Part shown: positions 17,802-61,397 of the stretch, in pieces
How the letters are laid out: each line of letters begins with the position of its first letter
Numbering within the stretch: position 1 is the first letter of the stretch
Origin: Alteromonas sp. MMG017
GTDB lineage: Bacteria; Pseudomonadota; Gammaproteobacteria; Enterobacterales; Alteromonadaceae
Length of the DNA stretch: 64,000 nt
Assembly: GCF_018100795.1 (NCBI RefSeq)
Contig: NZ_JAGJDY010000002.1
Location: forward strand, 1 to 64,000
Direction of reading: 5' to 3'
Made by a program: the position numbers and the translations under genes
Notes under the pieces: model-generated
Database searches by the model: none
The model's input: the letters and a program-made list of their open reading frames with translations, nothing else
Told to the model about the DNA's origin: nothing

Positions 17802-18935
<1,134 letters not shown>

Positions 18936-19198
18936 CTATATGGCTGATATTGGCAGATTTTTGTACCAAGCTAGGGTAAAACATCCCGGATAGGGGTTTA
19001 TCGTTACCCTAATATCAACATTTATTCAATTGACTGCCTATATTTATGTGTAAACGCCAGACTGAGTATACCAATTAGCTTTATAACTGTGCCGCCTAAA
19101 AAGAGCACCGCTACATTACTAACGTGACAATACATGCTATGTATGCATTGTTCAGACATGAAGATAAAAGTATGGTAACGTTGAGTAGTTGTTGTCAC

Positions 19199-21418
19199 AT
19201 GAGAGCTAATGTTGTGCAAAAGTGGGTTAAGTTCACCGCGGCGTTCTTCTTGTTTTATATCAGTCTTCCCGCGTATTCAAACGAGCAAGCTAACTGTTTA
19301 AGTTGTCATGCCAAACAAGTAAATGAATGGCGGGAATCTGATCACAGCAAAGCCATGAGCCATGCATCAGAACAAACCGTTTTGGGTAATTTCAACAACG
19401 TAACTACTACTCACTTATCTCAAACTGCGCGCTTTTACAAAAACAGTAACCAGTTTATGGTCTCGCTTACCGAAGCGAGCAAAACAACTAATTACACTAT
19501 TTCGTATGTGTTCGGACACTTCCCTTTACAACAGTATTTAATTGAGACTGAATTGGGCCGTTTTCAAGTATTCCCTTTTGCGTGGGATAGCAGAAGTCAA
19601 TCAAATGGAGGGCAGCGTTGGTATCCTAATTATCAAGCTGAAGACATTGGTGAAAAGGACAGGCTACACTGGAAACAGCCAATGCAAAACTGGAATGGTA
19701 TGTGTGCTGACTGCCATTCGACCGGTTTGAAGCGCAATTTCGATAACAAAACACATTCGTTTAACAGCCACTTTGACACAATTAATGTATCCTGTATTTC
19801 TTGTCATGGAAATATGAAAGCACACCATGATTCCGCAAAGGTCACACAAAGCTTAGCGCCTTCACAAAAACAGTATTCCCATACCAATCTTTCAACAGTT
19901 GAGCAGAAAGCACTGGGGCAGTGGTTATTAGAAAACGACGAAAAAATAGCAAGCTGGAAAGAATTAGATAACGGTGAATACAAGCCAGCTAAGCGAGATA
20001 ACCGTTTCATGGATACCTGTTTTGGCTGCCACTCGTTGCGCTCGCCTCTCTCTGACGGAATTAATCCCGAACAAGCTTATTTGGAACAATTTACGCCTTC
20101 GTTGCTTATTTCTCCCCTTTACTTCGACGATGGGCAAATTCGAGAAGAAGTTTATGTCTACGGCTCGTTTCTACAAAGTCGTATGTATGAAGCAGGCGTA
20201 AACTGTATTGACTGTCACAACCCTCATACAATGAAAGTGAAAGCAAAAGGGAATGGCTTATGTTTGCAGTGTCATTCAGCAAACGCCTATGAAGGTGAAA
20301 AACACACAAAACATCCGAGTGATAGTGAGGCTAGCCGATGTGTAAATTGCCATATGCCTACTCGCACTTACATGGGGGTTGACGCAAGAAGAGATCATAG
20401 TTTTAGTATTCCCACCCCTCACGTATCACAGAAAACCGGCGCACCCAATGCATGTCTAAATTGTCATGAAAACGACAACTCATGGGTATCTGAGCACTTA
20501 ACTGATTGGTATGAACGTGCGTCTACCTTAAGTAATGAAGAAGAAAAATATATTGATTTTATGCACGGCGAGCCGATGAATAAAACAACTATGCTTGGTC
20601 TAGTTCACGCTAAATCACTACCTATTATTAAACGTGCAACCGTTTTATCGTCTTTGCCTACTCGCTTGAAAGCATTGAGCGACAGAGACCTACGAACATT
20701 TATTCGAAATAAAGAGCCGCTATTACGGCTAGCTGCAGCGCAAGCAGGTAGAGCTCTTCCATCCAATGAGCGAATAAAATCATATACATCATTGCTAAGC
20801 GACAAATACAAGGCGATAAGGGTTGCAGCAGTAAATAACCTCATCGGTTTTGGTTTAAAAACTGACGCATTTAAAAAAGCGCTGAACGAACTTAGTTTAT
20901 CCAACGAAGTTAATCAGTGGCGTGGCGAAGGAAACTTAAATCAGAGTTTAGTTAACTATCAATTGGGTGATATCAATGAAGCCGAAGCGCTATTAAAACA
21001 AGGTATTAAAATAGATCCTTACTTTGAAGCAAATTATATCAATCTCGCTGAACTTTACCGCAGCCAAAATAAAGCAGAGCTTGAAAAACAAACCCTTGAA
21101 GATGCGGTAAAAGCGGTTCCAAATAGCGACCTTGTTTACTATTCACTTGGTATGTTAAATATTCGCCTACAAAATAAACCCACCGCCGTTAAGTTATTTA
21201 AAAAAGCGACTGAACTAGCACCTACTAATGCGCAAAACTGGTATATTTATGCCCTTGCTTTGGACAATATTGGACAAACGCAAAATGGTATTACCACGAT
21301 TAAAGAAGGCGTATCACATGTGCAAGAGAGAACCCTTGTAGAATTAGGCATGTCTCTTTCTAAAAAGCAGGGAGATCGTGAATCGTTTAGTTACTTTCGT
21401 TCAAAAATGCCGGATTAA
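19199..21418 (+). CDS. Octaheme cytochrome c with TPR domain
   Basis: About 740 residues. A signal peptide (about residues 1-27, hydrophobic core FTAAFFLFYISL) directs it to the periplasm. Eight CxxCH heme sites follow: CLSCH, CADCH, CISCH, CFGCH, CIDCH, CLQCH, CVNCH and CLNCH. The first lies in a cytochrome c554-like context (KQVNEWRESDHSKAM). The C-terminal third is helical, with repeats resembling HEAT and then TPR units. The role is presumably electron transfer; the partner is unknown. The frame is open from 19124, with ATGs at 19124, 19172 and 19199; I chose 19199 for the best signal peptide. It is the first gene past the housekeeping block and points towards the GH16 gene. Confidence 0.75.
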   Translation: MRANVVQKWVKFTAAFFLFYISLPAYSNEQANCLSCHAKQVNEWRESDHSKAMSHASEQTVLGNFNNVTTTHLSQTARFYKNSNQFMVSLTEASKTTNYTISYVFGHFPLQQYLIETELGRFQVFPFAWDSRSQSNGGQRWYPNYQAEDIGEKDRLHWKQPMQNWNGMCADCHSTGLKRNFDNKTHSFNSHFDTINVSCISCHGNMKAHHDSAKVTQSLAPSQKQYSHTNLSTVEQKALGQWLLENDEKIASWKELDNGEYKPAKRDNRFMDTCFGCHSLRSPLSDGINPEQAYLEQFTPSLLISPLYFDDGQIREEVYVYGSFLQSRMYEAGVNCIDCHNPHTMKVKAKGNGLCLQCHSANAYEGEKHTKHPSDSEASRCVNCHMPTRTYMGVDARRDHSFSIPTPHVSQKTGAPNACLNCHENDNSWVSEHLTDWYERASTLSNEEEKYIDFMHGEPMNKTTMLGLVHAKSLPIIKRATVLSSLPTRLKALSDRDLRTFIRNKEPLLRLAAAQAGRALPSNERIKSYTSLLSDKYKAIRVAAVNNLIGFGLKTDAFKKALNELSLSNEVNQWRGEGNLNQSLVNYQLGDINEAEALLKQGIKIDPYFEANYINLAELYRSQNKAELEKQTLEDAVKAVPNSDLVYYSLGMLNIRLQNKPTAVKLFKKATELAPTNAQNWYIYALALDNIGQTQNGITTIKEGVSHVQERTLVELGMSLSKKQGDRESFSYFRSKMPD

Positions 21419-21500
21419 AAAGAGAAATCAACGGCTCATCCCCCTCCCTCTTTAGTTTATTAACAATTTAACAACAATTAATTGCAATACGCCCCAAAAC

Positions 21501-21517
21501 AAAACATCATATCTTAA
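21501..21517. promoter_or_regulatory. PUL operator-like palindrome 1
   Basis: AAAACATCATATCTTAA matches 14 of 17 positions of TAAACATCATATGTTTA, the palindrome found across the accessory locus. It lies 34 bp before the start of the GH16 gene. Confidence 0.5.
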
Positions 21518-21551
21518 GCAAGGTATCACCACTAAATTGGAAGCTTACGTT

Positions 21552-22550
21552 ATGATGAAAAAACAATACAAGAGGGTTTGTCTGGCCTCGTTATTACTGA
21601 GTATGAACACTGGGTACAATGCATATGCAGATAGCCTTTTACCGATGTCAGACCCATCAAACAAGGGAAACTGGGTACTTAATACAGAAGTTAGTGATGA
21701 ATTTGATGCAGACAAAATTGATGAAGACAGGTGGTTTATTGTCGGTAAATTCAAAGATGGCGTACCACAATATGTGCACCCAGATAAACCAGAAAAATGG
21801 GTGTGGAAAGGTCGAGCACCGTCCCAATTCTCTGGTCGTAACTACCGTTTAGAAGACGGAAAACTAATGCTTGAAGCCCGCTGGGAACCGGACTTCCCTT
21901 TCACTGATGAAGTTAGAAAACCGGTATTTGGTGAGCCGATGAAGCACGAGAATATCACCACCCCCTGTTTCATCGGCCGCCGCTCTTTTACCTATGGGTA
22001 CATTGAAATAAAAAGTAAATCTGCAGATGCAGAGGTAACCAGTGCTTTCTGGTCTATGGGGCCCAAGATGGAGTTCGACTTTTTCGAATCGTTTGGTGAT
22101 AGCCGTGAAGACCCAAATAAAGATCATTTAGACAGCGAGTTATGGTGGTCAATTCGAGACTGGGAAAAACCTGTTGGGGGCAAACCTAGCTACACAGAAA
22201 GAAAGCAACTAGGTTTTAGAATGTCCGATGACTTTCATGTTTATGGCATTGAATGGAGCGAGAGTGGCATAAACTACTACATTGACGGAAAGCTCTTTTC
22301 CTCGATGACACCAAAACAAGCAACTGCGTGGGCTAAGCAAAACCGTAAAGATCTTCCCGATGACTATAATGGCTATGTCGCCACCCGTCCTATTAATTTA
22401 TGGCTGGATATGGAAACCTTCCCTTGGCATGGCTACCCAAATAGTCTGGAGGATTTAGAACAGAACAGCCCTGAGGATAAAAAACATGATGGTGTGGTAG
22501 ACTTTGAAGTTGAGTATATTCGCGTGTGGCAAAAGCCTGAAGCTAAGTGA
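21552..22550 (+). CDS. GH16 family galactan hydrolase (agarase/furcellaranase-like)
   Basis: A secreted enzyme of about 332 residues with an N-terminal signal peptide (about 1-27) and a single GH16 domain. The catalytic motif is E174-F-D176-F-F-E179, the ExDxxE form of agarases, porphyranases and carrageenases. WKGRAPSQF (about 85-93) is shared with marine galactanases, and NLWLDMETFPWHG occurs near the C-terminus. It is not close to the kappa-carrageenase at 41.3 kb. Beta-agarase, or a furcellaranase cutting beta/kappa hybrid carrageenan, are the best guesses. GGAAG at 21539-21543 is eight bases before ATG 21552. A carrageenase-like role is favoured by context only. Confidence 0.8.
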   Translation: MMKKQYKRVCLASLLLSMNTGYNAYADSLLPMSDPSNKGNWVLNTEVSDEFDADKIDEDRWFIVGKFKDGVPQYVHPDKPEKWVWKGRAPSQFSGRNYRLEDGKLMLEARWEPDFPFTDEVRKPVFGEPMKHENITTPCFIGRRSFTYGYIEIKSKSADAEVTSAFWSMGPKMEFDFFESFGDSREDPNKDHLDSELWWSIRDWEKPVGGKPSYTERKQLGFRMSDDFHVYGIEWSESGINYYIDGKLFSSMTPKQATAWAKQNRKDLPDDYNGYVATRPINLWLDMETFPWHGYPNSLEDLEQNSPEDKKHDGVVDFEVEYIRVWQKPEAK

Positions 22551-22588
22551 TAAAAACTACATACTTTCTAAATAAAATACCGAATCAG

Positions 22589-22659
22589 CAGGCTGAGCAA
22601 CAAAACTGTTCTTCAGCCTGTATTTTAACTGAAGCACGCTACCTGGTAGCGTGCTTTTT
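22589..22659 (+). terminator. Two hairpins with T-tract after the GH16 gene
   Basis: A first hairpin pairs CAGGCTGA (22589-22596) with TCAGCCTG (22613-22620). A second, stronger one pairs AGCACGCTAC (22633-22642) with GTAGCGTGCT (22646-22655) and runs into five T. The second is a good intrinsic terminator for the plus strand. Confidence 0.8.
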
Positions 22660-22774
22660 AAACCAGCAAAGCGGCAACTTACATAGGGTTTTGCTTTTAC
22701 GGCTAAAATTTTCATATGGCCAATTTCTTTAAGACCATAATTAGCAAGATGTAAGGATAGAACATTTTTTAATG

Positions 22775-24077
22775 TTAATACTCGTACACTAATTCGCCAT
22801 TTATGTAATGCTTTAAAACCTTAATCTCTCTTATCAGGTTTGCAGGCACTGTACGAGGATCATGGGATAAAACTACAAAATCAGCGAACTTTCCTTTTTC
22901 TAATGTGCCTCTTTTTAGTTCGTCGTTCAGTGAGTAACTATTTGTTACTGTGTAGGCGGTGAGTGCTTGTTCTACCGATATTTTTTGTTCTGCAATCCAG
23001 CCTTGGGGGTTAGTATTATCAAGAGTGCTTCTTGTAACTGCGGCATAAATGCCTTCAAAAGGTGACAAAGGGGCAACGGGCCAATCCGACCCAAACGTCA
23101 ATAACCCACCTTGCTCCAAAATAGATTTAAATGCATAGGCTGTAGGCAATCTTTTAGGGCCTATTCGCTCTTCTGCCCACTGACCATCATCGATTGCATG
23201 ATAAGGCTGCATGGATGCGATAACGCCAAGTTCAGCTAACTTTCTGATTGCATCTTCAGAGGGGTGTTGAAACGAACGCTCTTATCTTCATAATTTCGCG
23301 TTTTTCTGCGAGCTTAAAAATGTCTAGCATTGTTGTTTCAGATGGATAAGCAGTTACAGCATGTACTTTTGATATTCCCAAACTCAACGCGAGCTCTTGC
23401 GCCATCGCAAATTGTTTCATTAATTCATCGTCACTCGGCGATGGTAAAATATTTAAGATAAGATTAAGGGCGTTTCCCTTTAAAAGTCCTGTAGGCTCGC
23501 CATGTTCGTCCCGTACTATGACTCCACCTTTTGGATTTGGGGTATTGCGATCAATACCAGCAAGCCTTAATCCCAGTGAATTTACTAACGCTTGGTGTCC
23601 GTCAATTCGAATAACATAAACTGGGTTATTTAATGTAACTGAATCAATCCAAGATTTATCGGGCAGCATTCCGCCCCAGTTTTGATGATCCCAGTTGCCA
23701 TTTAAAATCCATTGATGAGGGGGTAAAGTTTTTGCGTAAGCGGCCATTAGTTGGGTAAATTCTTTTGGAGTAGTAACGGGTCTTAAATCGATACTAGCTA
23801 GTGCAGCGCCCCCCTCCATGAAATGCACGTGGTTATCTGTGAAGCCATGCATTACAAACCTCCCACCGAGATCTACGATCTTCTCGCCTTTTAACTGCTT
23901 AGGTATATCGTTTCCAACAAAGACAATCTTATCCTTGTCTATGGCTATTACAGACTGTTCTGTTTTACCCTTTGCTCCTGTCCATACTGTTACGTTTGTA
24001 AAAACAGTAGCAGCCGAAGTACATAGTGAAAATACAGAGATGATTAAACCAAAACTTATCAAAAGAAATGTGTTCAA
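22775..24077 (-). pseudogene. YtcJ-like amidohydrolase, broken by internal deletion
   Basis: Two parts in different frames together resemble a YtcJ-type metal-dependent amidohydrolase. The first (24077 to about 23256, TTG start with AAGG upstream) has a signal peptide, the metal-binding DNHVHF and the NWDHQNWGG region. It stops right after AFVSTPL. The second (about 23255-22775) starts with EDAIRKLAELGVIASMQPYHAIDDG and has the TFGSDWPVAP and GKFADFVVLSHDP segments. From the family pattern roughly 120-130 residues are missing between them, including the GSLGS and HAIGD metal-site regions, and the frame changes at the join. It is very unlikely to be active. A sequencing error cannot explain the missing stretch. 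Confidence 0.8.
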
Positions 24078-24211
24078 TTTTAATAGCCTTAAATTGATTA
24101 GCGGTTTGCTTGTAGAATACTAGGTTGCACTTTAAACGTTAAGTCGCATTAAAGCTGAAAACTTAGTCTATTACTTACCGATCCTCAATACTTTGTTTAT
24201 GAACAATAATT

Positions 24212-26112
24212 TTACAGTTTAACCTTCGATCCAGCCTCTCTATCTTCTAAAGACTTTTCTTCACCATTAGGCCAAATAACATGCACTTTCTCAACGCTGT
24301 CACATTCACCAATACCAAAGTGCATATTATTGTTTAACATATAATGGAAACCGTCACCCGTGGCACCAACATGCTGCGTTTGTTGTTTGCCGCAGGCTGT
24401 AATAGTGACTTTAGCGCCTGTTGGCTGAGCTTTTTGAACCTCAGATACTCCGACTTCTACTTTGATGAAATTACCCAACGCATCTTTTTGAATTTGGTTT
24501 TTAGCCAAATACCAACGCCCCCTCTCATTGCCGTATACCACGTCAACCCGACCATCTTGGTCATAGTCGAAAGCAGTTATTCCAACACCTGTAGCGCCAA
24601 TCTCATCGGATGTTAAGCCTGCGTGAGAGAACTTACTAAAGCTCTTCCCCTGCTGATTCATCAATACGTAGTGCTCAATAGGTAGCGCCATATTTCCATA
24701 GGGGGTTATGGCTAAATCCATAAAGCCGTCGTTATTGAAATCTGCCACTGCAACACTGGTGGTTTGTTCCTGTATATTGATACCTAAGCGTTGGGTAACA
24801 TCTACAAATTTGCCGTTGCGATTTTCTAGTAAAAGAGCAGGTAAAGGCTTTCGCTTCATCTCATCAGGGTGATTAACAACATTCTTTATTACTGCCGATA
24901 ATCGCGACTTCACTGCACCACCAATACGCCATTTACTGTTCCCCAAATAGCCAATATGTAGGCCTTTTAGTTCGCTATCTGCCGGCCAGCCCATTGCGTT
25001 TTGTGGTGTTATTTCAAGACGACCATCCATATAGTGAGCTGCACGCACTGCTTCAACAACTTTCCTCTCTCGGCCTAGCTGAATGTTATAGGTTGCCCAC
25101 GTTTCTTGGATGTTTTCCAGAATAAGATTTTCACCTTCAATAGTGATGTCTTCAAACATAAAACTTTTTCTAAATACAAAGAACGCAAAGTTTTTATCTT
25201 TAGGGTCGTAATAAGATTCCTGTTGAAATTGATATTGGCTGCGGGCTAGAAACAGGTCAAAGTCACCGTCGTTGTCATAATCTATTTCTGCAATATTGAT
25301 CACATTGTGGGTATTAGCTAAATCACCTAAGACTTCTTTTGTACTATCAACATAACTTCCTTCGCCCTGGCCTATCGATAGCGTCATATCTTTACCACCA
25401 AAAGTAAGTACGTCGGAAATATCGTCATTATTCACATCAGTGACCAGCGTTTTAAACGATAGCGGGTCATGAGGAATAGATAGTGTTAGAGGGGGCGAAA
25501 AGTTCTTGCCCGAATTAAAGTAAAGTTGATTTGTTGTCAAAGACTTTACGCGTTTAGGCGCAAAGCCGGTTGTGAATAAATCCAACTTATTATCACCATT
25601 GGCCTCTAGAAATTTAATGGCCCGTCCTCTACTGGCACTGAAGTGCGAAAACGTGCCGCCTTTTGTGATATTTCGTTGTTTGTCCACACTGAAATAAATG
25701 GGTCGCCTTGGATTTCCTCCATCGCCACCACCTGGTGATACAACAATATCCATCTTGCCGTCACCATCGTAATCCGACACGCCTAAACCATGTGTGTCTC
25801 CAGTTACTATTACAATAGGTTCAGAGAAGTGCCCTTCGTTGTTCCAGTAAATAAGTGCGTTAGTACCATGCTGAGTGGTTATCACATCATCCCACCCATC
25901 TTGATCAACGTCGGCAGTAACAGCGGCTCCCCACTTTCGTTGAAGAGACTGAGTAAAAGGAATAATCCCATTCGTTCTTTTGAAAACCAGCGGGGGGAGT
26001 TTGTTGGTTTACTCATTGCTGAAGCATGCTCGCTAGCGCATCCACTAAGTAGAGCCGATGCCACTATGGACATAATGCAACACGCAAAAGACACATTTTT
26101 TACTGGGTTCAT
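24212..26112 (-). pseudogene. FG-GAP/ASPIC-UnbV lipoprotein, single-base frameshift
   Basis: An N-terminal lipoprotein signal (lipobox LSGC, about residues 21-24) is read from 26112; the main body (557 residues, VCBS/FG-GAP repeats such as DVDQDGWDD, DYDGDGKMD and DFNNDGFMD) is read in another frame. The body ends in an ASPIC/UnbV domain (about the last 75 residues, LNNNMHFGIGECD). Adding one base to the six-base C tract (G at 25992-25997 on the plus strand) joins both parts and yields LVFKRTNGIIPFTQSLQRKW, aligning with the intact paralogue at 29.8 kb. So the gene is either inactivated, phase-variable, or affected by a homopolymer error. The intact product would be about 633 residues. Function is unknown; such proteins are usually exported beta-propellers. 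Confidence 0.8.
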
Positions 26113-26214
26113 TTTTACTCTCTCAATCTGTCATTACCAGCTAACAATAAAAAACAACTGAAAAAATACATATTAGTTATTAAATTTCACAGCAGCATGT
26201 ACATATTATATATT

Positions 26215-26231
26215 TAAACATATTATGTTTA
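26215..26231. promoter_or_regulatory. PUL operator-like palindrome 2 (perfect)
   Basis: TAAACATATTATGTTTA: eight-base arms are perfect inverted copies around one central base. It lies between divergent genes, 102 bp from the start of the FG-GAP lipoprotein gene and 51 bp before the propeller gene. Confidence 0.75.
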
Positions 26232-26282
26232 TGGTTTGTTATTAAAATTTATCGGTAATATTAATTTTTACGTGGAGAACAT

Positions 26283-27317
26283 ATGAAAAATTTCTGCTTT
26301 ATCAGCATTGTTGTGGCAATTTTCACTATTACAAACAGTGCACACGCTGCTGAAAATTTACAAGTGGCAAAGCTTTTTGCAAATTTGCCAGATAACTGCC
26401 CTACGCCAGATGCTTTTGCAATCGCGCCAAATGGATCGCTTACGCTTTCATGCCCTAATTTCGCTAATAACAAGCTACAAGGAGAGTTGTTTTCTGTAGA
26501 CAAATTAGGAAATGTAAGCCATTTAGTCACTGTTCCAAAACTTGGCCTATCGAAAAAAGCCAATCCAATGGGGATCGCATATGACTCTCAGGGTGCACTA
26601 TATGTCGCAGATGCAAGAGGAATCAAAGATGGGCGTATTCTTAAAATGTCGTTTGACCAGAACAAGTTGGTTAAAACAGAAATAGTTGCGTCCGGTATCA
26701 ATCCTAATGGACTAAGAATTCACGACAGCGCGGTATACATTACTCAGCCTATGATGCCTAAAATCAATACAGACGGAATGACTAGTGGAATTTATCGATT
26801 CTCATTAACTGACAGAGACAAGACAATGACTAATTCATTACTGGATAAGGAACTCATTTTCAATGTTCAAACCGATAATCCAGATATTCAAGTAGGTCTT
26901 GATGGACTGGATTTTGACAAAGATGGCTATCTATTTACAACTGATTTAGGTGATGGCGAAGTGTATAAGTTGACGCTAGACAGTGATGGGAATGTTGTAA
27001 GAAAAGAACTGTATATGAACATTCCGAATGACGCTCGAATAGATGGCATGGTGTTTGACGATGAAGGTAATTTGTATCTCGCTGGCTTTGGTCTAAATCA
27101 AGTTTTTAAAATAACATCCAATAAACGGCTGATAAAAATTGCCGACTATCCCGATAATGATGGAAGTAATGGTCAAATTGATCAACCCGCAGACCTCATG
27201 GTTTACGACGGAAAGCTTGTAATTTCGAACTTTGACCTGATGAAAGGAAATGGGCTTCGTAATACTGAACATAGCAAGCCCTACACCCTGTCATATATAA
27301 ATCTAAAGAAGTTTTAG
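26283..27317 (+). CDS. Periplasmic SMP-30/gluconolactonase-like beta-propeller
   Basis: 344 residues with a Sec signal peptide (about 1-22, cleavage after AHA). The remainder has repeated segments of the type DxxGxLYVADxR, LDFDKDGYLFTTDLG and FDDEGNLYLAGFG, the pattern of a six-bladed SMP-30/NHL propeller. Family members are lactonases or sugar-binding proteins; the activity here cannot be fixed. GGAGA five bases before the ATG supports the start. It is transcribed divergently from the frameshifted FG-GAP lipoprotein gene, sharing a perfect operator palindrome, so it is probably co-regulated with the locus. A lactonase acting on an anhydrogalactonolactone would be attractive but is speculation. 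Confidence 0.7.
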   Translation: MKNFCFISIVVAIFTITNSAHAAENLQVAKLFANLPDNCPTPDAFAIAPNGSLTLSCPNFANNKLQGELFSVDKLGNVSHLVTVPKLGLSKKANPMGIAYDSQGALYVADARGIKDGRILKMSFDQNKLVKTEIVASGINPNGLRIHDSAVYITQPMMPKINTDGMTSGIYRFSLTDRDKTMTNSLLDKELIFNVQTDNPDIQVGLDGLDFDKDGYLFTTDLGDGEVYKLTLDSDGNVVRKELYMNIPNDARIDGMVFDDEGNLYLAGFGLNQVFKITSNKRLIKIADYPDNDGSNGQIDQPADLMVYDGKLVISNFDLMKGNGLRNTEHSKPYTLSYINLKKF

Positions 27318-27473
27318 AGAAAAGTACGATACCTGCAATGTCGTAAAGTTGTAGCATAGCCCCTGTAAAATAGGCGTCGGCTCATAAGGGGCTAAATAGA
27401 ATGAAGAAGACGCCAATTTTGCCTTGTCTTTAAACAATCTGATCCTATCGACACATTACTGCTAGCGTGAACA

Positions 27474-28973
27474 TTAGTGCGCAGACGCCGGACGTATCAA
27501 CAGCTTCCCTTCAGACTCTTTCCCATCTGACGGTTTCTGCCAGTAGTGGTCCATCCTATCTATATCGTAATTTTCAAACTTGCGTTCTAGTAGCCAACGA
27601 GGTCTTTCTAACGTGGACTCCCATTCGAATATTTTCTTGAACAGCATTTTTACAAGTTCTGGATTCTCAGCGGCTACATCTCTAAATTCCTTTTCATCGT
27701 TATCGATGTAATAAAGCTCTGCAGGACGGTCTGGAAAGCGCATTAATTTCCAGTTTCCAGCGCGTACAGTGGCTCGCGTATCTTTTTTCCAATATAGAAA
27801 TTCATGGGGTGCATCTTGAAGCGTACCTTGAACAAAAGGTATCAAGTTAACACCGTCTATATTTTCTAACGTTGATGTATCACCACCGCCAGCCGCAAAA
27901 AACGTAGGAAGTAAATCTAATGTACTTACAGGATGCGTGTACGTAGTTCCGTGATCAAATACACCAGGCCATTTCATAACGTATGGCACCCGTACCCCAC
28001 CCTCCAAGTGATTAGATTTAGTTCCACTTAAAGGGAAGTTATCTGAAGCGTTCATATCGGTAGGGCCGCCATTATCATTGGTGAATACCACCAAGGTGTT
28101 ATCTTCAATACCTAAGCGTTTCAGCGTGTCTAATACCTTGCCAGACGCTCGGTCCATGGCATACATCATGGCGGCAACTGTTTTTCGCTTGCCGGTTAGA
28201 TTAGGAAATTTCGCTAAGTCTTCTTTTGTAGCTTCCATAGGAGTATGAGGAGCATTGAACGAAAGGAATACAAAAAACGGCTTTTCAGCCTCTGTGCTCC
28301 GTTCGATAAAGTCTATTGCTTCATCGGCAAGTTCATCTGTTAAATATTCTTTGGGCTCTTGGTATTGAGCAAAATTTCGCTCCATCAATTCAAGTTTTGA
28401 AGGCGCTTTTCCCTCATCATAAGCAAAATAACTGCGCGCACCGCCGCGAAAACCATAGAATTCATCGAAGCCTCGATTTAACGGATGAAATTTATCAGCT
28501 CCTCCTACATGCCACTTACCATAATAAGCGGATGTGTAGCCTTGCTCTTTAAGGTAATCGGCCATCATTTTTTCTTCAACAGGTACACCCATTTCGTCCC
28601 CATCAAGGGCTGAATTCTTACTCATATAGCCTGGAACGTTATTTTCCTCAAAGCCAAAGCGTTGCTGGTAACGTCCGGTTAATAATCCAGCCCTTGACGG
28701 TCCACATGTAGGATCAGAAACATAACCTTGCTCGAACCTTACTCCCTCGTGAGCAAGCTGGTCGAGGTTAGGGGTTTTTATTACTTTACTTCCTTGAAAG
28801 CCAAAATCACCATAACCAGCATCATCAGAAAAAATAAAAACGATGTTGGGTTTTGATTGCTGTTTCGAGTCAACTTCTGTGCCGTGAATACTTCCTTGAG
28901 CAAACGATATTGCTGGGATCACAGATAAACACAGTGCCCATAATCCAAGCGCCTTGTGATTATGTTTTTTCAT
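27474..28973 (-). CDS. Sulfatase, S1 family (formylglycine type)
   Basis: 499 residues with signal peptide (about 1-25), so periplasmic. C90 in [11 protein letters not shown] is the cysteine that must be converted to formylglycine. Metal-binding FSDDAGYGD (about 48-56), YGKWHVGG and FTNDNGG are present. The overall sequence resembles the S1_19 subfamily, which contains carrageenan 4-sulfatases, but this is from memory of the family. It is the third gene of a probable operon with the SDR (39 bp upstream) and the FG-GAP lipoprotein. No sulfatase-maturating enzyme is in the window. Confidence 0.88.
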
Positions 28974-29012
28974 TGCTTTGTCCTTCTAGTACAAATTTAT
29001 AAATACAAAAAA

Positions 29013-29717
29013 TCATGTGAAGTTTTCTTCAAACTGCGGACGGATCACAAGTTCGTGAATATGCACTAACTCCTCTGCCTGCAGTAAATTAAAAACTGCC
29101 TTCGCGACATCTTCGGCGTGCAAGTATTCTGGTCGCTGAGCCTCTCTAAAGTCAGTATCAACTCCACCGGGGTAAACTGAGAGCATCTTAATATTGTCGC
29201 CGCGTAACTCCTTTCGCATCACTTTGGTATAAGCATCTAGCGCCGCTTTACTTGCCGTGTAAGCGGCTATTCCAGGGTTTGAGAATAAACAAGCCGTAGA
29301 AAGAATATTAATGATTACGCCCTGCTTGAGACTTTGCATACAGGAAGCTACCGCCTGCATACATCGTATTGGCGCATAGCAATTTACTTCCATTAACCAA
29401 TCTAGTTCTGAAAGTTCGGTATCTAGTCCTGTTTTCCTAATATTATTAAGCCCAGCACAGTTTACGAGAACGTCTACACTTCCATGTCTTTCAATAGCAC
29501 GTTTAAAGAAACCAGAGGTTTGTTGAACATTGGTTAGACAAAAGCTCTCGCTGTAGAGCGAGTCAGAAGGTAAATCCCTCACTGTTTGCATCAACTTTTC
29601 ATCGCTACGCCCACACAGGCTCAACAAATATTTATCGCCTGTTAGAAGCATGGCTAATGCCTTGCCTATTCCAGAAGATGCGCCGGTAATTACAATATGC
29701 ATTTTCCTATCTGCCAT
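29013..29717 (-). CDS. Short-chain dehydrogenase/reductase
   Basis: A classical SDR of about 234 residues: TGASSGIGKAL cofactor loop near the N-terminus, NCAGLNN (about residues 86-92), a serine in ILSTAC, and the catalytic YTASK (about 152-156). It would oxidise or reduce a sugar or alcohol with NAD(P). Start ATG 29717 has AAGGTG just upstream; the frame is open six codons further. It has no signal peptide. Its position between an FG-GAP lipoprotein and a sulfatase suggests a step on an imported galactan sugar, but the substrate is unknown. Confidence 0.8.
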   Translation of the reverse strand: MADRKMHIVITGASSGIGKALAMLLTGDKYLLSLCGRSDEKLMQTVRDLPSDSLYSESFCLTNVQQTSGFFKRAIERHGSVDVLVNCAGLNNIRKTGLDTELSELDWLMEVNCYAPIRCMQAVASCMQSLKQGVIINILSTACLFSNPGIAAYTASKAALDAYTKVMRKELRGDNIKMLSVYPGGVDTDFREAQRPEYLHAEDVAKAVFNLLQAEELVHIHELVIRPQFEENFT

Positions 29718-29767
29718 AACGGCACCTTGACGCATTGCTATCTCGCTTTGTCATTATTCGCCAACTC

Positions 29768-31735
29768 TTACCACTTCAGGTAGGTATTCAACTTGCTAAA
29801 TGTCTTAGTAGCTTGCGTTTTATCACTCCACGTGATGGTAACGGTTACAGGCTCATCACAGCTCCCCACACCAAAATGTAAAGCATTGTTAGCGCTTAAA
29901 GAGTAAGCAGCCGATGTTTGTCCTACTTTCTTTCTTTGCATATTGCCACACGCTAAAATCTCTACAACCGATCCCATAGCGTTACCATTAGCCTTCGGAG
30001 AAGAAGGAACATATATTCCGAAAAAGTTATTTTGTGAGAATGTATTGTGAAAGAGGTGCCATTTGCCACGATCGTTACCTACAAGCAGGTCAACTTGACC
30101 ATCCAAGTCGTAATCTAGAGGTTCTACACCAAGTCCTAACGCACCAAGCTCCGCACTTATTACGCCATGAGATGCATTCAACTTTAATTGCTTACCTTGT
30201 TCATTTGTAAAAACCAACGCTGTATTAGGGTGAATAAGATCGCCTTTCTGGGCGATTACAAGGTCGCTATAACCATCGTTGTTGATATCAGCCACTGCAG
30301 ATGCAACCGTGTTTGCCTGATACATTATCCCTAGCTGCTGAGAAACATCTTCAAATTTCCCACCGTTATTTTTTAATACCACATCGCGTATAGCTTTAGG
30401 TTTTTCCATATGTGGGAATGCGGCAACGCCTTTTATAACCCCCGTGGAAATAGAAAAGGTTGCTGTCGCAAATTGCCATTTATCATTTCCAACATACCCA
30501 ATATATGCTCCTTTTTTGTCTAAGGTGTCAGGAAAACCAAGCGCGTCACTATTTACAATTCGCACATTTCTGCCAATGTGCGTTTCACCTTCAAACGCGT
30601 AGGGATAAGCAGATTCACCAACAAACAAATCTTTTGTTGGCCATTGGCTTTGAAAGTTGATCAGCTCTATGACTGGACCCGCTTTAAACTGAGGGAATTT
30701 ATGGGCACCTCGCAGCCAATAGTAGCCCATTAATTGCTGGCTTTTATCGTAGAAGGTTTGGCCAGGTTGATATTCAACCGAGCGTGTTATGAATAAATCA
30801 AAGTCTCCATCGTTGTCGAAATCAATTTCATTAAAACTTGTCACGTCATGTAAGGGGAATGGAAAAATGCTGTCAGTGACTTCATTATAATCAAATGCTT
30901 CAGTCGCTTGATAAGCCCTCGCCTTATCGTTGCCATAAATTATAAGATCAGGCAGACCATCGTCATTAAAATCGGTAACCAGTGTTTTCTGCCCATCACC
31001 TTTCACTGAAGGAAATTTAATGATTTCGTTAAATTGACCATTCTTAGTATTTTTAAACACATAGCTTTCACTCTCTCCTTTCATCTCGCGCGATGGGAAA
31101 GCAAAATTTAGCATATCAAGCCAACCATCTTGGTTTAAATCTATTAGTTTTACCGTTCGCCCACGCATAAATGGCATGGGGTTATCGAAGTCTGGCATAG
31201 CTGAAATTGAACGGTCTTTACCTATGCGGAAGAGCTTAGTATTCCTAGCATTACTCCCGGAACCGCCTCCTCTTGAAACCGCTATCTCTGTGCTACCGTC
31301 TTTATCAAAGTCCCCGGCAGTAATGCCGTGCATGTCCCCCATTATGAGATCATAGGGCTTAGCAAAGCGTCCGTTATTGTTCCACAATACCTTTAAACTA
31401 AAACCGTGATCGTTCAACAAGAGATCTGGATAGCCGTCCTGATCAAGGTCTGCGACAGTCGGCACATCCCATTTACGTAAATTACTATTTTTAATCGGAA
31501 AATTGATTGTATCCGGCTCGAATTGAATGTTTTCTTTATCACCAGTAACGGTATGAAAAGTGCCCTTATGATTGAAATTCTCTGCACTAAGTGCCGTGTC
31601 GTTTTTTTGTGGAACACTTGCACAAGCAACATTGAAAGTACTGACCGCAAATGCTATCAAAATGACTTCTAATATCTTTTTATTTGGAAAATCGACACTC
31701 TTAAAGGTGCCAATAAATAGACGCTTAATAAACAT
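29768..31735 (-). CDS. FG-GAP/VCBS repeat lipoprotein with ASPIC/UnbV domain
   Basis: About 655 residues. Start ATG 31735 gives a signal with lipobox NVAC. The body carries many calcium-loop repeats of FG-GAP/VCBS type (DLDQDGYPD, DFDKDGSTE, DLNQDGWLD, DFNDDGLPD, DFDNDGDFD, DINNDGYSD, DYDLDGQVD), which form a beta-propeller. The last 75 or so residues (ANNALHFGVGSCDEPVTVTITW) match the ASPIC/UnbV domain. It is the intact paralogue of the broken gene at 24.2-26.1 kb. Role unknown: surface or periplasmic binding are the usual suggestions. It heads an operon with the SDR and sulfatase genes, with an operator palindrome 63 bp upstream. Confidence 0.8.
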   Translation of the reverse strand: MFIKRLFIGTFKSVDFPNKKILEVILIAFAVSTFNVACASVPQKNDTALSAENFNHKGTFHTVTGDKENIQFEPDTINFPIKNSNLRKWDVPTVADLDQDGYPDLLLNDHGFSLKVLWNNNGRFAKPYDLIMGDMHGITAGDFDKDGSTEIAVSRGGGSGSNARNTKLFRIGKDRSISAMPDFDNPMPFMRGRTVKLIDLNQDGWLDMLNFAFPSREMKGESESYVFKNTKNGQFNEIIKFPSVKGDGQKTLVTDFNDDGLPDLIIYGNDKARAYQATEAFDYNEVTDSIFPFPLHDVTSFNEIDFDNDGDFDLFITRSVEYQPGQTFYDKSQQLMGYYWLRGAHKFPQFKAGPVIELINFQSQWPTKDLFVGESAYPYAFEGETHIGRNVRIVNSDALGFPDTLDKKGAYIGYVGNDKWQFATATFSISTGVIKGVAAFPHMEKPKAIRDVVLKNNGGKFEDVSQQLGIMYQANTVASAVADINNDGYSDLVIAQKGDLIHPNTALVFTNEQGKQLKLNASHGVISAELGALGLGVEPLDYDLDGQVDLLVGNDRGKWHLFHNTFSQNNFFGIYVPSSPKANGNAMGSVVEILACGNMQRKKVGQTSAAYSLSANNALHFGVGSCDEPVTVTITWSDKTQATKTFSKLNTYLKW

Positions 31736-31798: not shown

Positions 31799-31815
31799 TA
31801 TACATCATATGTTTT
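31799..31815. promoter_or_regulatory. PUL operator-like palindrome 3
   Basis: TATACATCATATGTTTT differs at two positions from TAAACATCATATGTTTA. It lies 63 bp before the FG-GAP lipoprotein gene that heads the lipoprotein-SDR-sulfatase operon. Confidence 0.65.
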
Positions 31816-32161: not shown

Positions 32162-32178
32162 TAAACATCATATGTTTA
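32162..32178. promoter_or_regulatory. PUL operator-like palindrome 4
   Basis: TAAACATCATATGTTTA, with perfect seven-base arms. It sits 288 bp before the TonB receptor gene in a 731-bp gap (31736-32466) that holds no gene; the distance suggests a long 5' untranslated leader. Confidence 0.75.
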
Positions 32179-32466: not shown

Positions 32467-35400
32467 ATGCACAACATATTTAAACTTAATGCGATTACGA
32501 CCGTGGTGCTCGCATCTTGTTTGAGTCAGCCTCTGTGGGCTCAAGAAGCCCCCCAAGAGCGCGACGAGCAAGAAATTAAAAACACAACGAAAAATGAAAA
32601 AGAATCAGATATCGAAGTTATTGAAGTACAGGGAATTAAAGGAAGCTTACAAAAGTCAGTAAACTCCAAACGATTTAACGATAGCGTTTCAGATTCAATA
32701 CACGCAGAAGATGTAGGGAAGTCAACTGACCAAAACATCGCTGATGCTCTATCGCGCGTTACCGGCGTTACTGTGCAAGAAGAAGCTGGAGAAGGTACCA
32801 GAATTTCTGTACGGGGTGCAGGTCCATCACTAAATCAAGTGTCTATCAATGGCGTTGCACTTACAGGCGGATTAAGTGGTGGCGGTGGTAACGGTGTTAA
32901 CAATAATAGTGTTGACTTGAGTTCATTTTCTGCAGATATTTTATCCTCGATAGATGTAGTAAAAACAGCAGCTGCCGATCAAGACGAAGGTTCTCTTGGC
33001 GCAAATATTGAGTTAAAAACAGTACGCCCTCTCTCTTTAAATAAGCCACGGCGATCTTTTACCTTCGAAGGTAGATACAACGAGTTTGCTGATGATGAAG
33101 ATTATCGAATTGTTGGAAGCTTTTCAGAAAAACTATTTGACGATCGACTCGGTTTTATTATCACCGCCACTAAAGATAGGCAAAACACACGCGTCGATAG
33201 AATTGATACTGATTGGGCAAACCAAGCAGTACAAATATCAGATGCGCTGGATGAAGGCAGCCGAGCAAGATCAGCAACTGATTTAGCAACAGGGCAACCT
33301 ATTAGGGTTCTTGGGTATCAGCGCGACAACAGTGGCGAACTTATCCTTGGCGAAGACGGCCAACCTATATCGAACCCGATTGAAAGCCTCTTAAATTACG
33401 ACCCAACAACTCAAACCCTGGTTGAGGGGGATTTATTCGTTATGGGTCGCGAATTTATAAACTACAACTTGAATACTGACCAACGCGACAGACTTTCTAT
33501 ATCGACTGGTATCCAGTACGAAGTGAGTGACGACACTATGCTTCAAGTCGATATTACGCATACAAATCAGAAGATACTCACAGACAACCATCGCATGTTC
33601 ATGAACATTGCGCCGTTGACTCCTCTTATTCACCAAGATGATAACAATGTAGCGTTGAATGTTGTCGATCTTTCAACGAATACACTACAGCGATCAACGA
33701 GTCGCTCTATTACAGGGGGGTTCAACAGAGCAAGGGGGCTGAGGGAGCTAACGACTAACGTAGTCACGTTAGATTTACTTCACAGCTTTACTGACGACCT
33801 AACGATGAACTTTAGAGCGGGTTATTCTGGCTCAAAAGATGAAACGCCTGAAAGAGCTGACCCCGATGCCTTTTTTACAATAGGTACAGCAACATGGGGA
33901 ACTGCTGGACGAAACGTTGTTGAAGCGATGCCGTCAGATATTCTCGAATTGGTTGGCTACGATTGTACTCAAGGTTCATTATCAGATTGTGAGTATTTCA
34001 CGGGAAGTACACCGGGCGAATTTGATGCCTTTGACGGTAGTGCAAACAGCGTGACCAGCCGTTTCAATCCGTTTGACTTGCAACATAATCATCTTGGAAA
34101 TCTAGCGTTTAGAGAAAACAAATTTAAAGATACGAACAAATCTGTTTTCATCGACTTCGACTATGCGCTTAATAATGATTACGTAACCAGTATAGAGTTC
34201 GGCGGGAAATACGCGCATAGAAACCGTGACGTATCGATAAAAAATACCGCGATTACTAACGGCGAGGACCTGATTGCTTTAGACGATCCTGATGCAGAAT
34301 TTGACGTTCGGGGTTTAGCATCTATTCGTGTCGCAAATATGCTTTCAGACGAAGCATTTCCATATGATAACTACGGCGAAGATTTACAAGCAAACCTAAA
34401 TAATGAGTTCTGGGGTGGTTGGCCGTTACTGGATGCCCAAAAAGCGTTAGAACTGCTCTCTGGTAAAGACCCTTCAGAGATTGGCGTACGGTTTAGCGAC
34501 CAAGGTACCCGTGAAATCACCACAGAGACAATGGCTGCATATTTCAAAGCTAACTTTGAATTTATGGATGGCCGACTTACCGGTAACGTTGGTGTTCGCT
34601 ACGTAAAAGATGAAAACGAAGCTTCTGGCATTGGCGGTATTAATTATATTAGAGCACCTCAAGTCATCGACCCTTACAACTTGTTTGTAGAAAGAGACTT
34701 AGGGAACACAAGCCTAGCCCCCTGCCCGCTAGGCGTACCGATTGCCAATGGCGATACCCGCTACACGCCTCAAAATGAAGCTGAATTGAGTAATTGCTGG
34801 GCCTGGGCATTAACCCATGGATACAACTTCAACAACGCTGCAACCATACCTTTTGACGTTAATACGGGTCAGTTTCTTGTTATGGGCCCTGATGGACAAA
34901 CTGGTATAGACGTAAACCGCTTGGTATTTCAAGATGAAAATGGCAATTTCGTCTTTAACGAATTACCCGGCCAAATTTATGACGCTAACGGCAACTTAGT
35001 GCCAACAAACGCATCTAGCTGGGCGCGATTTAACCAAAGTGGTTATGTATGGCCTTTCTTGGATAGAAGTACATCGTTTACCGGCCCTAATGGTACAGGT
35101 CAAGAAGTACAAGTTAGAACAGCACCAGTCACTGATTCAGCTTCAAGCTCTATTTGGTTACCCAGTCTAACCTTAAATTATGCGCTGAACCAAGAAACTA
35201 TTGTGCGCTTTGCGTTAACCAAAACGATGACTCGTCCGCGGTTCGACTCTTTAAACCCCTCCGCTTTCATCCGCGAAAATCAATTTGGTTTAGCGTCTGG
35301 GAACGCAGGTAATACGGCGCTTAAACCGCTAACGTCTAATAACATTGATTTGTCTTACGAATGGTATTTCAGCAATTCAGGATTGTTGTCTGCGGCTATA

Positions 35401-36195
35401 TTCTATAAAGACATGGATAACTTCGAAGAGACCGTTGTTACCCCTTTTCACTATCGCGATGTAAGAGAAGAAGTTGATCTGCAAAGCTCTGATCTACTTC
35501 TCGACTTTGATGAAAACCGCACACCCGGAGGTGAAGATGATTGTCATCCACTTCGACTTTCTGCGGGCTTCTTCGAACAATGGAGAATTGAATGTGATGT
35601 TGCCAATATCAATACTTCAAAAAATGGATCAGGTGCAACTACTGAAGGTCTAGAGCTTGGCTACACACAAAACTATGATTTCTTACCGGGAATTTGGTCT
35701 GGTTTTGGTGCAACCATTAACTACACCTACCAGAAATCTGAGTCTGATCCTGTTGAAATTGGATCGTCTGGTCGTTTCTTGAAACCACTACCCCAACCTT
35801 TTACGCCTAGACATTCCGCTAACGCGACACTGTTCTATGAAAAAGATGGTATTCAGTTAAGACTAGCGCATCGTTACACAGGTCAGCAATTAGTTAACCG
35901 CGGATTATCTGGCGTATCGCTATGGCAGGATGATTCCCACAGACTGGATCTCAGTGCGTCTTATGCCATTAATAAAAACCTTACTGTTACGTTTAACGCG
36001 CTGAACATTACCGACGATACCAGAAGAAACTTTGTAACCGCTGCAAATGCTATTAATCCAAATAACGTGAATAGCAACGAAATTGTGCTTGATGAAGGCA
36101 GTATTTACGAAGACAGCAGTATTCCTCAAGAACGCACGGCATCGTTATTTAAGTTCGGTCGTCAGTTCCGAGTAGGTATTCGCGGAACATTCTAA
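32467..36195 (+). CDS. TonB-dependent receptor, carbohydrate type
   Basis: 1242 residues, longer than usual for the family. Signal peptide about 1-25, then a TonB-box-like IEVIEVQG (about 49-56). The plug domain covers about 70-185 (DQNIADALSRVTGVTVQEE, RISVRGAGPS). The barrel ends in RQFRVGIRGTF with the terminal Phe typical of outer-membrane proteins. It resembles the TonB-Xanth-Caul type used for oligosaccharide uptake where there is no SusD. The next gene, 60 bp on, encodes a surface-type lipoprotein, and both precede one strong terminator at 38032. Substrate is inferred from context to be carrageenan fragments. Confidence 0.9.
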   Translation: MHNIFKLNAITTVVLASCLSQPLWAQEAPQERDEQEIKNTTKNEKESDIEVIEVQGIKGSLQKSVNSKRFNDSVSDSIHAEDVGKSTDQNIADALSRVTGVTVQEEAGEGTRISVRGAGPSLNQVSINGVALTGGLSGGGGNGVNNNSVDLSSFSADILSSIDVVKTAAADQDEGSLGANIELKTVRPLSLNKPRRSFTFEGRYNEFADDEDYRIVGSFSEKLFDDRLGFIITATKDRQNTRVDRIDTDWANQAVQISDALDEGSRARSATDLATGQPIRVLGYQRDNSGELILGEDGQPISNPIESLLNYDPTTQTLVEGDLFVMGREFINYNLNTDQRDRLSISTGIQYEVSDDTMLQVDITHTNQKILTDNHRMFMNIAPLTPLIHQDDNNVALNVVDLSTNTLQRSTSRSITGGFNRARGLRELTTNVVTLDLLHSFTDDLTMNFRAGYSGSKDETPERADPDAFFTIGTATWGTAGRNVVEAMPSDILELVGYDCTQGSLSDCEYFTGSTPGEFDAFDGSANSVTSRFNPFDLQHNHLGNLAFRENKFKDTNKSVFIDFDYALNNDYVTSIEFGGKYAHRNRDVSIKNTAITNGEDLIALDDPDAEFDVRGLASIRVANMLSDEAFPYDNYGEDLQANLNNEFWGGWPLLDAQKALELLSGKDPSEIGVRFSDQGTREITTETMAAYFKANFEFMDGRLTGNVGVRYVKDENEASGIGGINYIRAPQVIDPYNLFVERDLGNTSLAPCPLGVPIANGDTRYTPQNEAELSNCWAWALTHGYNFNNAATIPFDVNTGQFLVMGPDGQTGIDVNRLVFQDENGNFVFNELPGQIYDANGNLVPTNASSWARFNQSGYVWPFLDRSTSFTGPNGTGQEVQVRTAPVTDSASSSIWLPSLTLNYALNQETIVRFALTKTMTRPRFDSLNPSAFIRENQFGLASGNAGNTALKPLTSNNIDLSYEWYFSNSGLLSAAIFYKDMDNFEETVVTPFHYRDVREEVDLQSSDLLLDFDENRTPGGEDDCHPLRLSAGFFEQWRIECDVANINTSKNGSGATTEGLELGYTQNYDFLPGIWSGFGATINYTYQKSESDPVEIGSSGRFLKPLPQPFTPRHSANATLFYEKDGIQLRLAHRYTGQQLVNRGLSGVSLWQDDSHRLDLSASYAINKNLTVTFNALNITDDTRRNFVTAANAINPNNVNSNEIVLDEGSIYEDSSIPQERTASLFKFGRQFRVGIRGTF

Positions 36196-40977: not shown

Positions 40978-41046
40978 TTTTAGACTCAACTTTCAAGACA
41001 GCCGTCAGTGGTATCTTCAATACAATATCGTGTAATATAACAAATA

Positions 41047-43903: not shown

Positions 43904-43966
43904 TTTGTGTCCTAATAGTTTGATGAAAGAAGTAGGGCAAGACATTTGTTATATGTATTATTTAGA

Positions 43967-47090: not shown

Positions 47091-47293
47091 AGAATTCCCC
47101 CTTCTACTACTCATAAAAATGTTGAAGTTCCCTTTTTAATACCCGCTCATAAATGCGTGTGGGTTATCGCTTGTAGCACTGCTTTTGCATCTTAATCACG
47201 TTAAAATCGGCTAAACCACTTTTCGCTACGTTTCCCGAAAACACGGTTTGTACGGCAAATATAAAGTTCAATCGCGAGATGGTATAATCAATT

Positions 47294-47310
47294 TAAACAT
47301 ATTATGTTTA
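47294..47310. promoter_or_regulatory. PUL operator-like palindrome 7 (perfect)
   Basis: TAAACATATTATGTTTA, identical to the site at 26215. It lies 203 bp before the first gene of the two-sulfatase operon in a 417-bp gap (47091-47507) without a convincing gene. Confidence 0.75.
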
Positions 47311-51836: not shown

Positions 51837-51853
51837 TAAACATATTATGTTTA
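51837..51853. promoter_or_regulatory. PUL operator-like palindrome 8 (perfect)
   Basis: TAAACATATTATGTTTA, 27 bp before the start codon of the MFS-dgoK-dgoA operon. A site this near the start would overlap the promoter or transcript start, which favours repression. Confidence 0.75.
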
Positions 51854-56242: not shown

Positions 56243-56377
56243 GATCTGTTCCACAAGCCTATATAAATTTCACTGTGTTTTTCACTTAGCGTATTCATGT
56301 TCTGATGGATGGTTTTAACACACTTTTTTAAGACGCACCCAAAGAAACATTAACAACCCTAAAAGATAATACAATTT

Positions 56378-61228: not shown

Positions 61229-61397
61229 GGACAACACCTCATTACCGATAACTAAATTAATCTTTAAATAAACGGCACGGCTATACAGTTAAAATAACCG
61301 CTGCTGAAAACAATTTATTTGTACCTTTTGGTTCGATTTAGTGCGTAGTTAAGGAGCTTATATGCTTGCATCACCCAACGCACAATTGCGATCAATG

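Follow-up and report, generated by a model that had tools for sequence, protein, structure and literature searches.

The main finding of this work was that two FG-GAP/UnbV proteins, here named UnbA and UnbB, and an SMP-30-like beta-propeller are conserved proteins of red-algal galactan loci, uncharacterised and already flagged as enzyme candidates. Their genes lie in a kappa/iota-carrageenan locus of Alteromonas sp. MMG017, on the first 64,000 nucleotides of contig NZ_JAGJDY010000002.1 (hereafter the window), in a genome of 4.73 Mb and 84 contigs. Because of their placement within the locus and next to a locus palindrome, and their recurrence with carrageenan enzymes in two phyla, we give about even chances to the view that UnbA, UnbB and the propeller are accessory proteins of red-algal galactan loci, here one for kappa/iota-carrageenan. 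The comparison with other genomes also narrows three published candidates for a missing carrageenan enzyme to two, UnbB and the propeller. An earlier note on this DNA had joined the three proteins with an octaheme cytochrome, an amidohydrolase and a short-chain dehydrogenase/reductase (SDR) in a tentative module that would be new; novelty has to be withdrawn for UnbA, UnbB and the propeller, whose gene-order counterparts, EU509_08830, EU509_08835 and EU509_08875, appear in the text of a study on Pseudoalteromonas (Hettle et al., 2019, PMC6923384).

Two UnbV proteins and a propeller in galactan loci

The genes unbA (24212-26112, minus strand) and unbB (29768-31735, minus strand) encode CRTAC1-like proteins, and in the UnbV proteins both the FG-GAP repeats and the UnbV_ASPIC domain score above the curated cut-offs of Pfam, the source of all domain families given here, while structure-database matches come from a PDB sequence search. 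The two had been described as paralogous lipoproteins; the paralogy stands (34% identity over 542 residues), but the second half of the description does not hold as written for unbA, which is frameshifted between lipobox and propeller, so that its signal peptide and clear lipobox (LLSGC) are out of frame with the body of 557 residues. Relatives in Aestuariibacter and Gayadomonas align to unbA only from 25987 down, in a single frame, and the break is due either to decay or to a sequencing error. UnbB, recognised by Pfam and by its structural model, is a probable lipoprotein with a cysteine after the signal in an atypical box, as judged by eye. By the same kind of inspection, the Pseudomonadota UnbV proteins show lipoprotein signals, and the lipobox cysteine is absent from 16 of 19 Bacteroidota proteins (loci L147-L149 left out; L and G numbers denote loci and genomes of our surveys).

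The third gene (26283-27317, plus strand), divergent from unbA, encodes a propeller with a signal peptide by eye and an SGL domain (PF08450) above cut-off. It shares PF08450 with SMP-30/gluconolactonase-like propellers, but the window type is a subfamily of its own, with identities of 42-49% among carrageenan loci; this is the range of five relatives, and the propeller of L134 stands at 42%.

In a tree of 55 UnbV proteins, the group around UnbA has 18 members and that around UnbB 30, each with support of 100/99 and each containing Pseudomonadota and Bacteroidota. Both groups are present together in the window genome, in Psychrosphaera (L119), in P. fuliginea (L134/L138) and at L125, L142 and L146, and their members are 31-50% identical to UnbB. 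The tree thus indicates that UnbA and UnbB are two old orthologous groups.

The palindrome that these genes share with the rest of the locus is the 15-base sequence AAACATATNATGTTT. Seven exact sites occur in the 4.73-Mb genome, all seven inside the window, and with at most one mismatch there are 14 places, 11 of them inside the window, against no exact site and one with one mismatch for the reversed-sequence control. As the earlier note had observed, the two UnbV genes and the propeller gene are all linked to it: one site lies in the gap between the divergent unbA and propeller genes (26216-26230), and two lie between unbB and a TonB-dependent receptor gene, at 31800-31814 (one mismatch, ahead of unbB) and 32163-32177. 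The unbB, SDR and exo-4S-kappa-carrageenan sulfatase genes run in the same direction downstream of the palindrome. Further sites at 51838 and 52002 flank the promoter of a LacI-type gene (52111-53088, plus strand), lying ahead of it, and one at 47295 precedes a sulfatase operon. The LacI protein or a GntR/FCD protein (47508-48257, minus strand; both by Pfam) could be the regulator that binds the palindrome.

Two surveys place UnbV genes of the window type beside galactan enzymes. In the order of the strain, UnbV matches occur in 38 of 295 genomes, and a galactan marker lies near 22 of 37 loci of the window subfamily (score of at least 600) versus 1 of 26 other UnbV loci (Fisher 3e-6); the window and L036 count towards these by construction, the reference proteins being those of the two clusters of this genome. 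This survey covered 69 of 74 UnbV places, leaving out one each of G013, G109, G055, G124 and G213, in stretches of up to 20 kb and with home-made profiles, and excluded the GH16 profile, which took up UnbV proteins with Big_2 modules. For named genomes, eight UnbB-type proteins were compared with contigs of one genome per species. Among the best 80 of 183 loci, an S1, GH16, GH167 or GH127 gene was found within 10 kb of 28 of 32 close relatives (score of at least 550), versus 1 of 48 distant ones; the close set includes L147-L149, with longer agar-type proteins of 26-28% identity, and counts L134 and L138, which share one contig. Split by marker, the 32 close loci have S1 in 23, GH16 in 16, GH167 in 15 and GH127 in 15, and with GH16 (searched with single GH16 proteins) left out the figures become 26 of 32 versus 1 of 48. 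The frame at L036:640-1575 has no Pfam match, and no GH16 count rests on it. Close Pseudomonadota relatives were found in Pseudoalteromonas, Psychrosphaera, Colwellia, Catenovulum, Paraglaciecola, Gayadomonas and Aestuariibacter, as well as in a Cellvibrionaceae and a Robiginitomaculum metagenome-assembled genome (MAG), and those of Bacteroidota for example in Maribacter, Tamlana, Aureibaculum, Flavivirga, Aquimarina and a Saprospiraceae MAG.

Counterparts in Pseudoalteromonas and genomes without GH127

Pseudoalteromonas (PMC6923384) and Colwellia echini (PMC6952198) are described in these papers as growing on carrageenan without GH127 or GH129, and in such growers the enzyme releasing anhydrogalactose is missing. 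In the text of Hettle et al. (2019), the carrageenan locus (CarPUL) of strain PS47 comprises EU509_08810 (GH167), 08815 (GH16A), 08820 (S1_NC), 08825 (S1_19A), 08870 (GH16B) and 08890 (S1_19B), and tags 08830, 08835 and 08875 are put forward as the possible missing alpha-1,3-(3,6-anhydro)-D-galactosidase, being conserved, six- or seven-bladed propellers, predicted to be lipid-anchored, two of the three up on carrageenan. At the places of 08830, 08835 and 08875, strain FUC4 (L132; one of the strains of Hettle et al.) and P. fuliginea (L134, L138) have a UnbV protein, an SMP-30-like propeller and a UnbV protein. The neighbours are alike, with 08825 (S1_19A) followed by 08830 and 08835, and 08870 (GH16B) by 08875, so we infer that these tags are the counterparts of UnbA, UnbB and the propeller, an equation made by gene order and not by the sequences of the three PS47 proteins. 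The window proteins are orthologous to those at the same positions, the UnbV proteins by the tree and the propeller by its identity to that of L134. The GH16 protein that precedes the second UnbV gene in P. fuliginea, in the GH16B place, is 65% identical to a window GH16 enzyme (21537-22550), which is therefore of GH16B type. The window locus differs in having GH127, for which a search of the three Pseudoalteromonas genomes was negative. Searching the literature for UnbV in loci for carrageenan or polysaccharides produced no relevant paper.

It is very improbable, in our judgement, that the UnbV and propeller genes are passengers of moving carrageenan loci with no role in carrageenan use. The frameshift of unbA in this strain would suit such genes, as would the fact that no function is established for them; against it stand the two orthologous groups kept at the identities given above, with invariant residues over two phyla, the palindrome linkage in the window and the induction of two of the three counterparts in Pseudoalteromonas stated by Hettle et al. 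(2019).

Full-length GH127 occurs in 23 of the 32 UnbV genomes searched and was not found in the other nine, G194 (weak match only), G072, G213, G105, G297, G298, G299, G302 and G303 (a 1.8-Mb MAG). Five of these nine, G194, G297, G298, G299 and G302, have GH167 and DauB-type matches, and all five carry the SMP-30-like propeller and a UnbB-group protein, group membership in G302 being assigned from score and from its place beside the propeller. A UnbA-group protein is present in four of the five (in G297 by its place), and Colwellia G298 has one UnbV match only. UnbA is thus missing from Colwellia G298, and therefore UnbB and the propeller remain as candidates. The comparison adds two GH127-less genomes, G194 and Colwellia sp. 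1_MG-2023. The GH129 profile PF11308 matched nowhere, controls included, and is uninformative on the absence of GH129.

The tree of UnbB follows the same division, with a subclade of six rows drawn solely from genomes without full-length GH127 (G298, G194, G297, G299, G213 and G105) and a sister clade of 24 with GH127 carriers only, carriage at L121, L123, L125, L126 and L142 being judged from the locus itself. This is one tree split and counts as one event, and the genome searches of G213 and G105 gave neither GH167 nor a propeller of the window type. UnbV as a replacement of GH127 was considered and rejected as a full account: UnbV proteins and the propeller are not simple replacements, because both co-occur with GH127. 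Of 19 genomes, 6 have the propeller start within 3 kb of a GH127 start, in each case no more than 1.4 kb away, and 6 have it within 3 kb of a UnbV start, no more than 2.1 kb away.

Possible roles of UnbB, UnbA and the propeller

We propose that the TonB receptor would import carrageenan chains into the periplasm, where GH16, S1 sulfatases and GH167 would shorten and desulfate them, and that the UnbV proteins and the SMP-30-like propeller would act on the resulting periplasmic oligosaccharides that bear anhydrogalactose. The UnbV proteins would probably consist of a seven-bladed propeller plus the UnbV domain, membrane-anchored in Pseudomonadota and mostly soluble-looking in Bacteroidota. Twelve residues outside the calcium-type DxDxDG repeats are invariant in 14 carrageenan-type sequences from both groups and both phyla (H110, H136, R175, R191, R193, E303, Q362, K408, W420, R556, W559 and H620), a pattern that would suit an active or a specific binding site.

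The AlphaFold model of UnbB (pLDDT 84, pTM 0.85) places it close to CRTAC1, which was the top match in the profile search (1.2e-21) and in Foldseek (5.6e-19) and which superposes on the model (VIA) with Z 36.9 over 447 aligned residues and a root-mean-square deviation of 2.9, the next-best match having Z 29.1. FG-GAP repeats, UnbV domain and fold over these 447 residues are thus common to UnbB and the CRTAC1/UnbV_ASPIC family, whereas identity is 17% and UnbB is a probable lipoprotein of a bacterium, encoded among genes for sugar use. Aldos-2-ulose dehydratase acts on anhydrosugars, and its structure (4a7z) has a propeller fold like that of the UnbB model (Foldseek 2.1e-8, Z 24.8), but identity is 9% and about half of the 880-residue chain is matched; because its Z is tied with those of other propellers, this likeness in the model is a lead only.

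That the UnbV lipoproteins are lectin-like galactan binders, which would retain oligosaccharides for either the sulfatases or the TonB receptor as a SusD-type stand-in, is possible though on balance unlikely. Integrin-type propellers as well as a lectin are found among the profile matches of UnbB, the UnbV protein of some other loci ends in Big_2 modules like those of kappa-carrageenase and of the lipoprotein linked to the receptor, and the lipoprotein signals in Pseudomonadota would suit such binding as well; yet a Big_2 lipoprotein already accompanies the receptor of the locus, most Bacteroidota relatives look soluble by eye, and many of the invariant UnbV residues are charged. We somewhat favour an enzymatic role for UnbB or the propeller, as a hydrolase or lyase acting on or beside the anhydrogalactose end, over pure binding by all of these proteins.

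In its specific form the enzymatic reading makes UnbB, or the propeller that accompanies it, a new enzyme family that would release 3,6-anhydro-D-galactose from neocarrageenan in the periplasm, with UnbA as a paralogue of other linkage or sulfation preference. We put this forward tentatively, as doubtful but worth stating; such release may take place, and is predicted from the distribution pattern. Several observations weigh against the main reading, the accessory role with its enzymatic leaning. In this strain unbA may be non-functional. The second profile match of UnbB is the lectin PVL (3e-8), and fusions of UnbV relatives to Big_2 modules of the kind also present in the kappa-carrageenase occur in some cases, both of which suit binding. 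Among the window-subfamily loci of the order, 15 of 37 lack a galactan marker, as do 4 of the 32 close loci within 10 kb. GH167 is only 33% and 27% identical in Colwellia G298, the DauB-type enzyme only 35-36% identical in three Pseudoalteromonas, and a stop lies inside the DauB match of G194. UnbV proteins and the propeller also occur in GH127-bearing genomes, the propeller in 10 of 12 such Pseudomonadota, and soluble active protein of the candidates was not obtained by Hettle et al. (2019), according to their text.

As side observations, UnbV propellers with C-terminal Big_2 modules of the kappa-carrageenase type are encoded at L061:6760-11157 and L101:7963-11064.

The octaheme-TPR cytochrome

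The cytochrome gene (19199-21418, plus strand) was described correctly in the earlier note, with eight CXXCH motifs (Pfam Cytochrome_C554 and paired CXXCH), a C-terminal TPR domain and, by eye, a signal peptide. All eight motifs are invariant in 24 sequences, and five further histidines of the haem domain (H49, H343, H369, H372 and H400) are invariant in the alignment; with five such residues, a distal histidine may be absent at some of the haems. Eight haem motifs are also found in the octaheme reductases HAO, ONR, OTR and MccA. An unusual catalytic haem motif, such as CXXCK or a long CX(n)CH, is typical of ONR and MccA, and was not found among the eight motifs of the window cytochrome, all of them CXXCH. 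Profile searches with the haem domain returned 6i5b (1.5e-15), 6qvm (1.4e-11), NrfA (1e-4), c554 (8e-4) and MccA (E 0.15), and the fold-search matches shown cover the TPR part only. The likeness to 6i5b, 6qvm and c554/NrfA lies in the haem domain, to which the window protein adds the TPR domain, and no match covering both parts together was seen in the structure and profile searches.

The earlier note had asked whether UnbV genes recur beside S1 sulfatases and octaheme cytochromes. For S1 this is so in the survey of named genomes above, while the cytochrome's link to UnbV loci is real but loose. In the 32 UnbV genomes, 8 of 25 Pseudomonadota copies, two of them from the window genome, lie within 10 kb of a UnbV gene, versus about 0.44 expected at random, and none of the 8 Bacteroidota copies does. 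In the order, 51 of 295 genomes have the cytochrome above 200 bits, 18 of them also UnbV, and an S1 sulfatase lies within 10 kb of at least 22 of 59 copies, 11 of these from one genus. The block of the window recurs in Pseudoalteromonas A601, where a window-type GH16 and UnbA are followed by a TonB receptor, by the cytochrome (48% identical to that of the window) and by S1; in FUC4 a distance of 4.9 kb separates the cytochrome start from UnbA. Since the A601 and FUC4 loci contain it, the cytochrome is expected in that Pseudoalteromonas CarPUL too, where it would fit tags 08880-08885 of PS47, two tags predicted to encode a TonB receptor and the cytochrome; the word cytochrome is absent from the main text of PMC6923384.

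The same genome has a second red-algal galactan cluster, which we label agar/porphyran-type (C22:408270-460091, L035-L037), with a TonB receptor, S1 sulfatases, two Agarase_CBM proteins, a tryptophan halogenase, PhyH and a P450 with a ferredoxin-type gene and a reductase. It also has an octaheme-TPR cytochrome 49% identical to that of the window, two UnbV proteins and an NHL-type propeller, in which BLAST detected no relationship to the window propeller.

One export/redox module acting on sulfated galactans, made up of the cytochrome, the SDR, the lipoproteins and the propeller and with the amidohydrolase either included or left aside, follows the suggestion of the earlier note; we judge it improbable. 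The excess of cytochromes near UnbV in Pseudomonadota, the A601 block and the joint presence of cytochrome, UnbV and a propeller in the agar-type cluster are what it has in its favour. However, the locus has importers and hydrolases, and no exporter among the families found; inspection by eye shows no signal peptide in the SDR; the amidohydrolase gene is disrupted; and in a genome-wide site search no palindrome with at most one mismatch was found upstream of the cytochrome-GH16 pair. Moreover, the Bacteroidota copies lie away from UnbV, and the same-genus relatives G031 and G121 keep the cytochrome with no such genes in the surrounding 40 kb, G031 having no UnbV match in its genome. The cytochrome as a carrageenan-only part was rejected as well, since in G031, G121, G292 and G139 the stretch examined around it contains none of the other galactan genes. 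With the accessory role of UnbA, UnbB and the propeller, the companion view, to which we give the same even odds, is that the cytochrome is a periplasmic electron carrier, part of this locus in several Pseudomonadota and, at other places, a frequent neighbour of S1 sulfatases.

Two observations concern the surroundings of cytochrome genes. A weak inverted repeat, ATACAT-GCT-ATGTAT, lies at 19130-19144 ahead of the cytochrome start in the window, with four differences from the locus palindrome by eye. At L056 the cytochrome gene follows two divergent S1-type sulfatase genes and precedes MoxR-type AAA, DUF58, VWA and BatD genes (Pfam), and gene sizes at L058 and L052 are similar, a sulfatase-cytochrome link outside galactan loci.

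Other genes of the carrageenan locus

The locus lies between pheS (17802-18824) and position 61237, with the genes studied here between pheST and the carrageenan set, and the placing of these genes among carrageenan genes in the earlier note is confirmed by the sulfatases, GH16, GH167, GH127 and Dau-type enzymes around them. A kappa-carrageenase of GH16, carrageenan S1 sulfatases and GH167/GH127 are all present, together with a TonB receptor and anhydrogalactose catabolism of DauA-D type, assigned at family level.

Next to the cytochrome gene, on its 3' side, lies the GH16 enzyme of GH16B type (plus strand; PF00722; PDB 9ijc, 1.6e-46), followed by the Amidohydro_3 (YtcJ-like) gene (22775-24077, minus strand), which the earlier note had listed like the other genes. 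It is split into halves (23256-24077 and 22775-23212) that do not share a frame, profile positions 177-332 (156 positions) are absent between them and the catalytic domain is incomplete; the gene is probably a relic. The SDR gene (29013-29735, minus strand; PF00106) is present as noted earlier, like the PF08450 propeller, and the reading frames of the propeller, SDR and GH16 genes are open throughout.

On the minus strand, the S1 sulfatases are of exo-4S-kappa-carrageenan type (27474-28973; PDB 6prm, 3.9e-195), iota-carrageenan type (44078-45520; 6bia, 1.5e-175; 6b0j, 2.8e-173) and exo-2S-iota type (45501-47114; 6pt4, 1.4e-205). The same strand carries a GH16 kappa-carrageenase with CBM and Big_2 domains (41315-43945; 5ocq, 5.5e-58), GH167 (56566-59004; best match 6ptm, 8.3e-136; 9whd, named GH167, 5.2e-129) and, by Pfam, GH127 (59240-61237), a DauA-type aldehyde dehydrogenase (38399-39847) and a DauB-type MR/MLE enzyme (39826-40989), both typed by family, a KDPGal aldolase, DGOK kinase and sugar transporter (48676-51809) and a second TonB-dependent receptor (53327-56254). 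The first receptor (32467-36195, plus strand) is paired with the Big_2 lipoprotein (36256-38004, plus strand), also by Pfam. The family of this lipoprotein recurs in six clustered loci, with the pair itself in L119, L132 and L138, and the two are possibly a SusCD-like pair of Pseudomonadota.

The carrageenan regulon of Zobellia (Ficko-Blean et al., 2017, PMC5698469), as given in its main text, has S1_19, GH127, DauA-D and GH16 in common with the window. The terms FG-GAP, ASPIC, gluconolactonase and cytochrome do not occur in that main text, whereas the window locus has such genes.

Implications

Two of the three candidates for the missing anhydrogalactose-releasing enzyme belong to a family named after an animal cartilage protein and kept in galactan loci across two phyla. 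If the tentative enzymatic reading is true, UnbB or the propeller would fill a step needed by degraders without GH127 and GH129, such as Pseudoalteromonas and Colwellia, and the CRTAC1-like family would include glycan-active enzymes.

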